The notes under the pieces are model-generated. The model ran no database searches and had not been told where the DNA came from. It worked only from the letters and a program-made list of their open reading frames with translations. 64,000 nt of DNA. Origin: Geomonas paludis (GTDB lineage: Bacteria > Desulfobacterota > Desulfuromonadia > Geobacterales > Geobacteraceae). A program made the position numbers and the translations under genes. Location: positions 124,001-188,000 of the forward strand of contig NZ_BLXY01000006.1 in the NCBI RefSeq assembly GCF_014193585.1. The letters run 5' to 3'. Shown piece by piece: positions 55,666-59,878 of this stretch (its first letter is position 1; every line of letters begins with the position of its first letter).

Positions 55666-56298
55666 ATGCTACACAAAAACAGCATCACGGATCAGGTATG
55701 CAAATGGTGGTTGAGCCTGGCGGCGGCTGTGCTGCTCCTGGCATTGCCGCTACTACGGGACGCCGGTGCCGGAGTGGTCCAACTGCCCAAGACTGGGCAA
55801 AAGGCCTGTTACGATTCCGCCGGGACGGAGATCCCTTGTGCGGGGACCAGGCAGGACGGGGAACTGCAGATGGGACTGGCGCCCCCCTCGCCGCGTTTTA
55901 CCGACCACAACGACGGCACCGTCACCGACAATCTCACCGGACTGATCTGGCTCAAGCAGGCCAACTGTTTTGCCGCCAAACTCTGGATGGATGCGCTCAC
56001 CGTCGCGAAAGACCTCCACTCGGGGACGTGCGGCCTGTCCGACAACTCGGTCTCCGGGGACTGGCGCCTGCCCAACATCCTCGAGTTGGAGAGCCTGGTG
56101 GATCTCTCCAACATCAACCCGGCCCTTCCCACTGGGCACCCATTCAACAACGTTCAGAACAGCGGCTACTGGTCTTCATCCACCAATGCTTTCCACATGC
56201 TGCGGGCGCGCTACGTCTACATGCCCGACGGCGCCATCAACGGCAGCGACAAGGCCACCGCAACCCATTTCGTGTGGCCGGTGCGCGGAGGACGCTGA
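55666..56298 (+). CDS. DUF1566-domain exported protein
   Basis: A 210-residue secreted protein. The start at 55666 has AAGGAGA upstream. A signal/anchor sequence covers residues 12-36 (WWLSLAAAVLLLALPLLRDA). The rest is a DUF1566 (Lcl C-terminal) domain: LPKTGQKACYDSAGTEIPCA, SPRFTDHNDGTVTDNLTGLI, WLKQANCF, WRLPNILELESLVDLS and SGYWSSSTNAFHMLRARYVY. Paired Cys residues (C48/C59, CF/CG) suggest disulfides and an exported location. It leads a three-gene plus-strand cluster with the lipoprotein and the large repeat protein, the latter carrying a related domain. Confidence 0.88.
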   Translation: MLHKNSITDQVCKWWLSLAAAVLLLALPLLRDAGAGVVQLPKTGQKACYDSAGTEIPCAGTRQDGELQMGLAPPSPRFTDHNDGTVTDNLTGLIWLKQANCFAAKLWMDALTVAKDLHSGTCGLSDNSVSGDWRLPNILELESLVDLSNINPALPTGHPFNNVQNSGYWSSSTNAFHMLRARYVYMPDGAINGSDKATATHFVWPVRGGR

Positions 56299-56355: not shown

Positions 56356-56940
56356 ATGCTCAGATACGGTTTGTTGGTGTGCTTGTTGTTGCTGACCCTC
56401 GGTTGCGGGGGCGGAGGTGGCAGTGCCGGGACCGGCAGCAGTGGCGGTAGCGGAGGCGGGACGGGTGGCGGCACAGGGGACAACGGCACCGGTACGATAG
56501 TCATACCTCCCCCCCAGGTGCAGCCCACCAGTGCGGTAGTGACCCTGTCGACGGTGGGAACCCTGCCACAGGGAAGCGCTATCGCCGGCGTGTCCGTCAC
56601 GCTGGGCCTGCCCGCCGGTGTCACGGTCGCAACCGACGCCAATGGCGCTGTGGCCGCCGGCGTGGTGACCGGCTCGGGACAGACCACTGGCCAGACCGCG
56701 GTAACGCTGACCACCCTCACCCCCGCCACCTCCACCACTGCGGGGTCGTTGCGGGTGGTGCTGGCCAGCAGCGCCCCGGCGGGGTTCACCACCGGCGAGT
56801 TCGCCAGGATCTATTGCGGCGTCAGCAGCGGAAGTTTTCCCAAGCCGTCAGACTTCTCAACTACCGACTTCCGGGCTGTCGACCTGCAGGGCGCCACCAT
56901 CACCGGCCTCTCCCCCATCTCCAGCGCGACCATCGAATAG
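56356..56940 (+). CDS. Lipoprotein with a cohesin-like domain
   Basis: A 194-residue envelope lipoprotein. CAGGAGG precedes its ATG. The signal ends in LLLLTLGCGGGGG, a clear lipobox with Cys17. A Gly/Ser/Thr linker covers residues 18-50. From residue 58 a beta-rich domain begins (AVVTLSTVGTLPQGSAIAGV, then VTVATDANGAVAAGVVTGSG, then GFTTGEFARIYCGVSSGSFP and ADLQ-like ending DFRAVDLQGATITGLS). The alternation of strands and the GEFA...F...D pattern resemble cohesin-type domains seen in Geobacter proteins. This is fold-level resemblance only. The next gene has a dockerin-like end. Confidence 0.7.
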   Translation: MLRYGLLVCLLLLTLGCGGGGGSAGTGSSGGSGGGTGGGTGDNGTGTIVIPPPQVQPTSAVVTLSTVGTLPQGSAIAGVSVTLGLPAGVTVATDANGAVAAGVVTGSGQTTGQTAVTLTTLTPATSTTAGSLRVVLASSAPAGFTTGEFARIYCGVSSGSFPKPSDFSTTDFRAVDLQGATITGLSPISSATIE

Positions 56941-56980
56941 ACGCCGGGTCCTCGGGTGTGAAACGATCCAGGAGGTCGTC

Positions 56981-59821
56981 ATGTGGTTTACCAAAGCACT
57001 TTCAGCAGTTTTATTACTGGCACTAACGGCACCCGCGGCCCAAGCCGCCACCATTCAGCTTCCCCGGACCGGCCAGACCCTTTGCTGGGACGTCGCCGGC
57101 GCCGTGATCGACTGCACCGGCACCGGGATGGACGGGGAGACGCAGATCGGCCACGAGTGGCCGTCGCCGCGCTTTACCGACAACGGCAACGGCACCTTGA
57201 CCGACACCATGACCGGCCTGGTCTGGCTCCAGAACGCCAACTGTTTTGGCAGCGTCACCTGGCAACAGGCGCTGGACACGGCCAATTCCTTCGCCAGCGG
57301 CTCGTGCGGCCTCAGCGACGGCTCGGTGGCGGGAGAGTGGCGGCTCCCCAACCGCAAGGAACTGTTGAGCATCAGCAGCCAGAACGTGGCCGACGGCGGG
57401 GCCTGGTTGAACAGCCAGGGGTTCGTGAACGGCCAGCACACCTACTACTGGACCTCGGACACCGACCTCAACTACGCCGGGGCCTACAAGTGGATCGTCC
57501 ATCCCGTCGGTGCGGCCTATCCGGAAAGCTGGAACACCCCGCCCGTCCCCGGCCGGATGGTCATGCTGGTACGCAACCCGGCCCAGGTCACCCTGAGCGC
57601 CGCCGTAGCCGACGGCAGCGGCAGCATCACCTCCGCCAACCCGCTCACCGTCGCCTACGGCTCGGCGGCCGCGTTCACCGTTGCGCCCGACCCCGGTTAC
57701 CTGCTGGCGGGGAGCGTCGGCGGGACCTGCCCACCGGGCTCCTTCAACGGCAACGTCTATAACCTCGGTGTCGCTACCGCGGATTGCACCGTGAACTTCT
57801 CGTTCACTCCGCAGACCTACACCATCGCGACCACCACGACCGGCAGCGGCACCCTCAGCTGCACGCCGGCGGCCAGCGCAAGCTTCGGCACCCCCGTATC
57901 CTGCACGGCGACCGCGACAGCCGGAAACCATGTCGCCACGGCCACCGTGGACGGCCTCAACCAGGCGACGGCAGGCGGGACCAGCTATACCTACTCCTTC
58001 GGCCCGTTGGACGCCGACCACACCATTGCGGTGGCGTTCGACATCAACAACTACCAGCTCACCTTCACCGTCGACGGCAACGGCAGCATCACCGGGAGCA
58101 GCAATCAGAACGTCGACCATGGGGGGACCGCAGCGGCGGTCACCGCCGTCCCCGGCACCGGCTCGCACTTCGTGAACTGGACCGGAAACAACGGTTTCGT
58201 CACCACGACGGCCAACCCCCTGACCGTGACCGACGTGGCGGCGGGTCTTGTGGTTACCGCTCACTTCGCCCTGGACACCTACCTGGTAACGCCGGCGAGC
58301 CCAGTCAACGGCAGGATCATCCCGTCATCGCCCCAGACCGTCGCCTACCAGGGGGCCACCACGTTCACCCTGGTCCCCGACACCGGCTACCAGGTAGCCT
58401 CGGCAGCGGGATGCGGCGGCACCCTGAACGGCACCACCTACACGACCGGGGCCATAACCGGCAACTGCTCGATCAGCGCTTCCTTCACGCCGATCAGGTA
58501 CACCATCGCCACCACCAGCGGCAGCGGGGGGAGCATCACCTGCACCCCGGCTGCCACCGCCGACTACAACGGGACGGTTTCCTGCACCGCGCTGGCTGAC
58601 AGCAGCTATCACATCGCCAACGTCACGGTGGACACGGTGAACCAGCCGGCCGCCGCCGGGACCTCCTCGTTCAGCTACCAGTTCGCAGCCATCAACGCCA
58701 ACCACGACCTCCGAGCCGGGTTCGCCATCAACAGCTACACCGTGAGCTACACCGCTGGCGACCACGGCACGCTCACCGAGGCAGCAACGCAGAGCGTCGA
58801 CCATGGCGGCAGCACCGCCGCAGTCAGCGCCGTCCCGGCGACCGGCTACCACTTCCTGGGGTGGACCGGGAGCAACGGTTTCACCTCCTCCGCCAATCCC
58901 CTGGTGCTGACCGGTGTGACCGGGAACATGGCGCTAAGCGCCGCCTTCGCCATCAACAGCTACACCGTGAGCTACACCGCTGGCGACCACGGCACGCTCA
59001 CCGGGACGGCAGCGCAGAGCGTCGACCATGGCGGCAGCACCGCCGCAGTCAGCGCCGTCGCGGCGACCGGCTACCACTTCCTGGGGTGGACCGGGAGCAA
59101 CGGTTTCACCTCCTCCGCCAACCCCCTGGTGCTTGCCGGCGTGACCGGGAACGTGGCGGTAAGCGCCACCTTCGGCATCGACACGCACCAGGTCACCCCG
59201 GCAGCAGCCGTTCACGGGGTGATCACCCCGGCGACGGTGCAGACCGTAGAGTACGGGACCGTGGCCAGCTTCACCCTGTCGCCTGATACCGGCTACCGCA
59301 TCGCCTCCGTCAGCGGTTGCGCAGGGATGCTCACCGGTGCGACCTACGCCACCGCCCCGGTTACCGCGGACTGCACCGTCGCCGTCAGCTTCAACGCCAT
59401 TTTCTACCCCTTGACCGCCACCAGCGCCGATGACAAGGGGACCATCACTTGCCCGGCCGAGACCATCCACGGCGGGAGCGCCACCTGCACCATGACGGCC
59501 AAGGCAGGCTTCCACCTGGCCACCCTCTCCGACAACGGCAGCGACTGCCTGGGCCAGGTCGCCGACGGCAGCTATGTGCTGAAGGACGTGACCGCGGCGC
59601 ACACGGTCGCGGCCAGCTTCGCCACCAACAGCTACACGCTGCCCGAGGTGCAGGCGGCCTACCGGTCCATGCTGGGACAGGCGCAGCTGTCCGACGGCGA
59701 CAAGGGGTTCTTCGATGTCGCACCGCTTGGGGCTGACGGACGGCCTGTTCCCGACGGCGTCATCGACGTCGCCGACCTGATCATCATGCTGCGGCAGATG
59801 GTGGGAGCGGTGAACTGGTAG
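56981..59821 (+). CDS. Large secreted repeat protein: DUF1566, InlB-type repeats, dockerin-like tail
   Basis: A 946-residue secreted protein. Signal peptide 1-22 (AVLLLALTAPAAQAATI). Residues 25-205 are a DUF1566 domain (SPRFTDNGNGTLTDTMTGLV, WRLPNRKELLSISS, YYWTSDTDLNYAGAYKW). Residues 210-880 are a chain of about ten divergent InlB B-repeat (flagellar-type bacterial repeat) domains with GYHFLGWTGSNGF-like cores and pairs of Cys (GCGGTLNGTTYTTG ... NCSISASF). Two adjacent repeats are nearly identical over 225 bp. The last 50 residues read SDGDKGFFDVAPLGADGRP then DGVIDVADLIIMLRQMVGA, an EF-hand-like dockerin. AGGAGG lies upstream. Likely an extracellular adhesin or matrix protein. Confidence 0.88.
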   Translation: MWFTKALSAVLLLALTAPAAQAATIQLPRTGQTLCWDVAGAVIDCTGTGMDGETQIGHEWPSPRFTDNGNGTLTDTMTGLVWLQNANCFGSVTWQQALDTANSFASGSCGLSDGSVAGEWRLPNRKELLSISSQNVADGGAWLNSQGFVNGQHTYYWTSDTDLNYAGAYKWIVHPVGAAYPESWNTPPVPGRMVMLVRNPAQVTLSAAVADGSGSITSANPLTVAYGSAAAFTVAPDPGYLLAGSVGGTCPPGSFNGNVYNLGVATADCTVNFSFTPQTYTIATTTTGSGTLSCTPAASASFGTPVSCTATATAGNHVATATVDGLNQATAGGTSYTYSFGPLDADHTIAVAFDINNYQLTFTVDGNGSITGSSNQNVDHGGTAAAVTAVPGTGSHFVNWTGNNGFVTTTANPLTVTDVAAGLVVTAHFALDTYLVTPASPVNGRIIPSSPQTVAYQGATTFTLVPDTGYQVASAAGCGGTLNGTTYTTGAITGNCSISASFTPIRYTIATTSGSGGSITCTPAATADYNGTVSCTALADSSYHIANVTVDTVNQPAAAGTSSFSYQFAAINANHDLRAGFAINSYTVSYTAGDHGTLTEAATQSVDHGGSTAAVSAVPATGYHFLGWTGSNGFTSSANPLVLTGVTGNMALSAAFAINSYTVSYTAGDHGTLTGTAAQSVDHGGSTAAVSAVAATGYHFLGWTGSNGFTSSANPLVLAGVTGNVAVSATFGIDTHQVTPAAAVHGVITPATVQTVEYGTVASFTLSPDTGYRIASVSGCAGMLTGATYATAPVTADCTVAVSFNAIFYPLTATSADDKGTITCPAETIHGGSATCTMTAKAGFHLATLSDNGSDCLGQVADGSYVLKDVTAAHTVAASFATNSYTLPEVQAAYRSMLGQAQLSDGDKGFFDVAPLGADGRPVPDGVIDVADLIIMLRQMVGAVNW
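58726..59175 (+). repeat. Two nearly identical 225-bp (75-codon) direct repeats within the large surface protein
   Basis: Copy 1 at 58726-58950 and copy 2 at 58951-59175, each starting CATCAACAGCTACACCGTGA in the first and with the same words in the second, with few differences (for example GAGGCAGCAACG against GGGACGGCAGCG). They encode the same InlB-type domain. The low divergence points to recent duplication. Confidence 0.9.
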
Positions 59822-59836: not shown

Positions 59837-59878
59837 AAAAGCCCCGGTGACGTCAGGTCGCCGGGGCTTTTGTTTTTT
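59837..59878 (+). terminator. Intrinsic terminator of the surface cluster
   Basis: AAAAGCCCCGG pairs with CCGGGGCTTTT over a 13-base loop and is followed by a T-rich tract. It lies 16 bases past the stop of the large repeat protein. Confidence 0.92.

Follow-up and report, generated by a model that had tools for sequence, protein, structure and literature searches.

We analysed a window of 64,000 nucleotides (nt) of Geomonas paludis (contig NZ_BLXY01000006.1, positions 124,001 to 188,000), part of a 5.1 Mb genome assembled as 30 contigs, and describe here two neighbouring genes in it, P0001 and P0002, which encode a small putative lipoprotein with a predicted cohesin-like domain and a large secreted protein ending in a predicted dockerin module. 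Their features, with positions counted from the first letter of the window, are:

56356..56940, + strand: P0001, a 194-residue lipoprotein (read from the sequence) with one C-terminal cohesin-fold domain
56404..56406, + strand: predicted lipidated cysteine C17 (TLGC-GGGG), read from the sequence by eye
56521..56937, + strand: cohesin-fold domain, P0001 residues 56-194 (the last 139 residues), from the predicted structure
56981..59821, + strand: P0002, a 946-residue secreted Lcl_C / InlB-repeat protein with a dockerin module at its end
57191..57508, + strand: Lcl_C domain, P0002 residues 71-176, from Pfam
59615..59818, + strand: C-terminal dockerin module, P0002 residues 879-946, with predicted helices at module residues 9-19, 27-33 and 52-62
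59714..59776, + strand: second EF-hand-type loop with a 9-residue insert, DVAPLGADGRPVPDGVIDVAD; acidic residues are retained in this loop

Predicted folds of the lipoprotein and the tail

P0001 starts with MLRYGLLVCLLLLTLGC-GGGGG, in which a signal peptide, a lipobox-like TLGC and a Gly-rich linker precede the domain. The T at position -3 is slightly off the usual L/V/I. A pattern search finds the lipobox in 47 of 50 paired homologues, and the remaining three are lipoprotein-like by eye. The signal peptide and lipobox of P0001 agree with the reading of the earlier note. Residues 56-194 have a predicted fold with a predicted local distance difference test score (pLDDT) of 93.5, and in the structure comparison (VIA-align) 49 of the 50 PDB entries listed, at ranks 1 to 49, are cohesin entries; VIA-align re-scores Foldseek's candidates only, so the comparison reaches no further than the folds listed. 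A cohesin-type beta-sandwich has nine strands, and the one proposed earlier for P0001, from residue 58, is borne out by the fold with its start at residue 56. A PDB profile search with the domain gave no convincing cohesin, its best match being an antibody; hhalign comparison with local cohesins was negative or weak; and Pfam Cohesin reached E 0.0064 at best among P0001 relatives, in one of 15, and matched none of 20 in another set. Because these sequence-only methods are negative or weak, the cohesin call rests on fold comparison. By predicted fold and gene partner, the P0001 domain resembles a cohesin, one that is not a member of the current Pfam family PF00963.

P0002 is composed of a signal peptide (by eye), one Lcl_C domain (Pfam E 4.6e-17), InlB-type repeats (Flg_new_2, 1.4e-51, in 9 stretches) and the C-terminal tail. 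The tail is predicted as a compact three-helix dockerin fold (pLDDT 89), all 20 PDB entries listed in the structure comparison carry dockerin, and profile-profile comparison with local dockerins gave E 2.6e-9. The dockerin had been placed at nt 59690-59818; the fold agrees, and that span is only the second half of a longer module, whose first predicted helix begins near nt 59639. The tail is degenerate, with no acidic residues in its first calcium loop and nine inserted residues in its second. Among the 50 paired tails, the second loop is found by pattern in 49 and a strict first loop in 19, and the first and last D of the second loop are present in all 50 aligned. Pfam Dockerin_1 (PF00404) does not match the P0002 tail; 7 of 22 and 5 of 14 tail relatives match it at E up to 1, the best at 7.7e-7. 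When the window proteins were scanned against Pfam and NCBIfam, neither Cohesin nor Dockerin_1 appeared at E up to 1. Routine annotation therefore overlooks the pair, and the Pfam check that the earlier note had proposed (PF00963, PF00404) came out negative for both genes.

Linkage of the two families across genomes

Linkage was surveyed in 58 related genomes, the window's own included. Of 188 tail matches 150 were listed, so co-location counts are lower bounds, and the 126 lipoprotein matches include weak ones and a few with in-frame stop codons. P0001 homologues (E <= 0.01) occur in 41 genomes, own included. A listed tail lies within 5 kb of at least 56 of the 126 lipoprotein matches, against 1.3 expected under independent placement; all 56 are on the same strand and 47 within 1 kb. 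Both families are present in 40 genomes and neither in 12, with the lipoprotein alone in one and the tail alone in five. Co-occurrence in relatives, which had been proposed as a check on the pair, is thus found, and the linkage is far above chance; genes lying apart in relatives had been named as a point against it, and here the picture is mixed, the two being strongly linked though not adjacent in every case.

In 50 pairs the lipoprotein gene follows the tailed gene, with a gap of no more than 150 nt in 43 of the 47 with an assigned start, and the tail ends 0-4 residues from the C-terminus in all 50 fetched. The usual pattern is a dockerin-tailed gene followed directly by a cohesin lipoprotein, the remainder of the tailed protein being variable. 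The lipoprotein comes first in six cases: the window, four genus relatives with the same three-gene unit (see below) and a further locus, in G005. In G002, the sixth genome with the window-type triad, the unit is divided over two contigs. Apart from these 50 pairs (lipoprotein no more than 2 kb downstream) and six window-type cases, 94 of the 150 tails remain, 80 of which were examined with a cohesin profile built from the 50 pairs, two nearly without downstream sequence. A cohesin-profile gene lies directly downstream in 22 of the 80, and 21 of these 22 also have a lipoprotein signal.

A search of GTDB genomes with the lipoprotein alone (a 5-row alignment) found an upstream tail gene at 13 of 14 loci (L090 is unpaired), among them two Nitrospirota genomes and one Holophagaceae genome. 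Across a phylum sample of 118 genomes, own included, tails occur in five and lipoproteins in four, all four among the five; the fifth tail is a weak partial match outside the order. One Nitrospirae metagenome-assembled genome (GWC2_56_14; L077, 983-7438) holds two tandem window-like triads, each of an Lcl_C protein, a dockerin-tailed protein and a cohesin lipoprotein, which suggests transfer between phyla.

Neighbouring genes, varied partners and chains

P0001 and P0002 are preceded by a third gene, P0003, and followed by a possible terminator:

55666..56298, + strand: P0003, a secreted Lcl_C (DUF1566) protein without a dockerin tail (Pfam Lcl_C E 5.3e-25)
59837..59871, + strand: intrinsic-terminator-like site 3' of the three-gene unit, a 15-pair stem followed by GTTTTTTC

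P0003, P0001 and P0002 lie in a row with intergenic gaps of 57 and 40 nt, each with a Shine-Dalgarno-like sequence upstream (by eye) and a signal-peptide-like start, and are likely an operon of which P0003 is the first gene. The unit is flanked (by eye) by a TPR-like gene on the opposite strand and a moeA-like gene. Terminator consensus matches in the region number 3 against 2.7 expected, with the stem at 59837-59871 the longest by far. The triad also occurs in five other genomes of the genus, where P0001 is 71-93% and P0003 77-88% identical, the N-terminal half of P0002 69-92% and its tail 78-89%. The DUF1566 protein had been suggested as a third component of the assembly: it is a conserved neighbour, kept at the equal position in five of five orthologous loci (L019-L023), and carries no dockerin tail of its own.

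The bodies of 17 tailed proteins that we scanned contain Lcl_C, InlB repeats, MBG, Kelch, Cu-oxidase or immunoglobulin (Ig)-type domains, or no family at all; because the rest of the tailed proteins varies in this way, the tail and the lipoprotein are the constant elements. None of the 17 has a catalytic glycoside hydrolase domain; Glucodextran_B, which we take to be an accessory domain, does occur. Neither a multi-cohesin scaffoldin nor a dockerin-bearing cellulase was seen among these proteins and the lipoproteins read, the genome search having been made by PF00963 only and cellulases not searched for.

The window's own genome contains three tails and two profile-level cohesin lipoproteins; a further small lipoprotein gene begins about 40 nt after the third tail gene, and the end of its product resembles cohesin only weakly. 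The PF00963 search gave two matches, in different genes. Also in this genome is a 1716-residue DUF5122/MBG protein (G000:C2:996809-1001956; L192:2810-7957) whose C-terminal dockerin belongs to the same tail family and has the classical two loops. Several genus relatives have a tail gene of similar length followed by a lipoprotein of about 495 residues that the cohesin profile does not match. A 440-residue secreted protein (G000:C11:56513-57832; L135:6514-7833) resembles cohesin in its N-terminal part (Pfam E 1.5e-4, which narrowly misses the cut-off in the protein scan) and an EF-hand/dockerin in its C-terminal part.

Within genomes, lipoprotein and tail similarity do not follow each other (r -0.01, null 0.17, p 0.97, 60 comparisons), and the correlation over all pairs is r 0.30 against 0.19 under within-genome shuffles (p 0.008). 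Co-evolution of the partners is not claimed, because the within-genome correlation is absent. Judged from these sequence comparisons, the result argues against strictly private partners within a genome and would be compatible with shared binding inside one cell.

Four-gene rows in three genomes (L121, L122, L123) read like a cohesin-dockerin relay. They encode, in order, a large protein that ends in a dockerin, one that combines cohesin and dockerin, a DVAPL-tailed protein of about 900 residues and a lipoprotein of about 389 residues. A fourth genome (L126) has the last three of these genes before its contig ends. The second relay gene has a cohesin above the Pfam cut-off in all four chains, and in L122 Dockerin_1 as well (2.4e-5); the third has one in three of the four, the G009 chain not being listed. 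The third gene of L122 scored 38.6 bits for Cohesin in the genome search, yet is unlisted in the protein Pfam scan. In two shorter chains (L124, L125) a cohesin-plus-tail protein is joined to the lipoprotein. The idea that the chains anchor multihaem cytochromes was dropped, CxxCH being present in none of 16 proteins checked.

Interpretation and alternative explanations

We consider it quite likely that P0001 and P0002 form a non-cellulosomal, lipoprotein-anchored cohesin-dockerin pair by which a large secreted protein is kept on the envelope, and the best reading of the wider pattern is a display system of Geomonas and relatives, in which the module is repeated on varied secreted proteins, often with a gene for a cohesin lipoprotein alongside. 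The computed basis comprises both predicted folds, the C-terminal position of the tail, the lipoprotein signals, and the strong linkage and co-occurrence; from these we infer binding, a part for calcium, placement in the outer membrane facing outward, and a function in adhesion or the matrix. After export, P0001 would receive a lipid on Cys17 and most likely reside in the outer membrane, where its single cohesin-fold domain, carried on a flexible Gly-rich linker, would serve as a membrane-bound socket. P0002 would likewise be exported, and its C-terminal dockerin module would plug into the P0001 cohesin, probably with one calcium ion in the long second loop, leaving the Lcl_C and InlB-repeat part, an adhesin-like body, to project outward from the cell.

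Several results weigh against this. P0001 matches no Pfam family, Cohesin (PF00963) included; 70 of the 126 lipoprotein matches have no listed tail within 5 kb; and for 58 of the 80 further tails no partner was detected in the adjacent position. Furthermore, calcium dependence of the P0002 tail seems less sure than for a standard dockerin, because the first loop lacks acidic residues and the second carries the insert.

The dockerin could instead be mainly an export or sorting tag, with the lipoprotein as a periplasmic receptor or chaperone feeding a secretion machine and the proteins released rather than anchored. We think this improbable, although the tail sits at the extreme C-terminus in all 50 fetched pairs, as known sorting tags do, and a secretin of the same genome (G000:C7:65247-67850; L136:5248-7851; Pfam Secretin 1.9e-42, with TPRs and near the gene of a T2SSE/MshEN ATPase) has a Pfam Cohesin domain at its C-terminus (E 7.4e-9). 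Visual inspection of 18 cohesin loci showed similar secretins at 11, this genome's locus among them, and a fragment at a twelfth. Pfam cohesins are, however, also present in genomes without a listed tail match (for example G020, G021 and G025), so the link between the secretin-type cohesin and the tail is not a strict one, and a lipid-anchored cohesin is more simply taken as an anchor. A combined route, in which DVAPL-type tails serve as dockerin tags caught by envelope cohesins, first possibly the secretin's at export, and are then held by the lipoproteins, with adaptor chains in some loci building multi-storey surface assemblies without a cellulosome, appears doubtful to us as a whole.

That the modules are remnants, the P0002 tail being a decayed, non-binding dockerin and the pair kept by linkage only, is in our view very unlikely: the loss of acidic residues from the first loop of the window tail, the missing Pfam match and the lack of private partner matching within genomes would fit it, whereas the second loop and last helix are clearly constrained (D, P and D are invariant in 50 of 50 paired tails) and the triad is retained in five other genomes of the genus. 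We give least credence to the lipoprotein domain being a general Ig-like beta-sandwich that binds, for example, glycan or InlB repeats; sequence profiles give no confident link to cohesins, but in the structure comparison ranks 1 to 49 of those listed are all cohesin entries, and the dockerin is the part that the gene partners share while their remainder is variable.

The earlier note regarded such assemblies as known for cellulosomes and not for metal reducers; cohesin-dockerin pairs outside cellulosomes are in fact already known. Compared with cellulosomal type I pairs (PDB 1ohz, 2ccl), the lipoproteins read here carry a single cohesin-fold domain each, anchoring is by a lipid, and the tail contains a long inserted loop and has often lost its first loop. 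Unlike the non-cellulosomal cohesins of Clostridium perfringens (2jh2, 2vo8, 2w1n) and Archaeoglobus fulgidus (2xdh), the cohesin here is the payload of a small lipoprotein and is encoded beside a dockerin-tailed protein, and some genomes contain several of these pairs. In the parts of two papers that we consulted (PMC9012536, PMC10553843), non-cellulosomal cohesin/dockerin proteins of anaerobic methanotrophic (ANME) archaea and their sulfate-reducing partners are found by standard domain annotation, described as variable and given a proposed role in adhesion and extracellular assembly. Non-cellulosomal use in anaerobes is thus shared, whereas those parts describe no fixed lipoprotein-plus-tail gene pair, and the window pair is missed by Pfam. 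A term search of PMC11557425 found no mention of Geobacter, Desulfo, proteobacteria or lipoprotein. Literature on cohesin or dockerin in Geobacter, Geobacteraceae and Desulfuromonads, and on a cohesin domain of GspD, gave no title or abstract start on this pair; subscription papers were mostly outside this search, and a prior description is possible.

The results indicate a cohesin-like subfamily that annotation has so far missed, and a modular mechanism by which Gram-negative bacteria of the Geomonas type could display large proteins without a covalent bond. As the partners are small and adjacent, their binding, calcium need and surface display are directly testable. If true, this arrangement may provide new cohesin-dockerin pairs for engineering, and it would account for the retention of many large repeat proteins on the cells of these bacteria.
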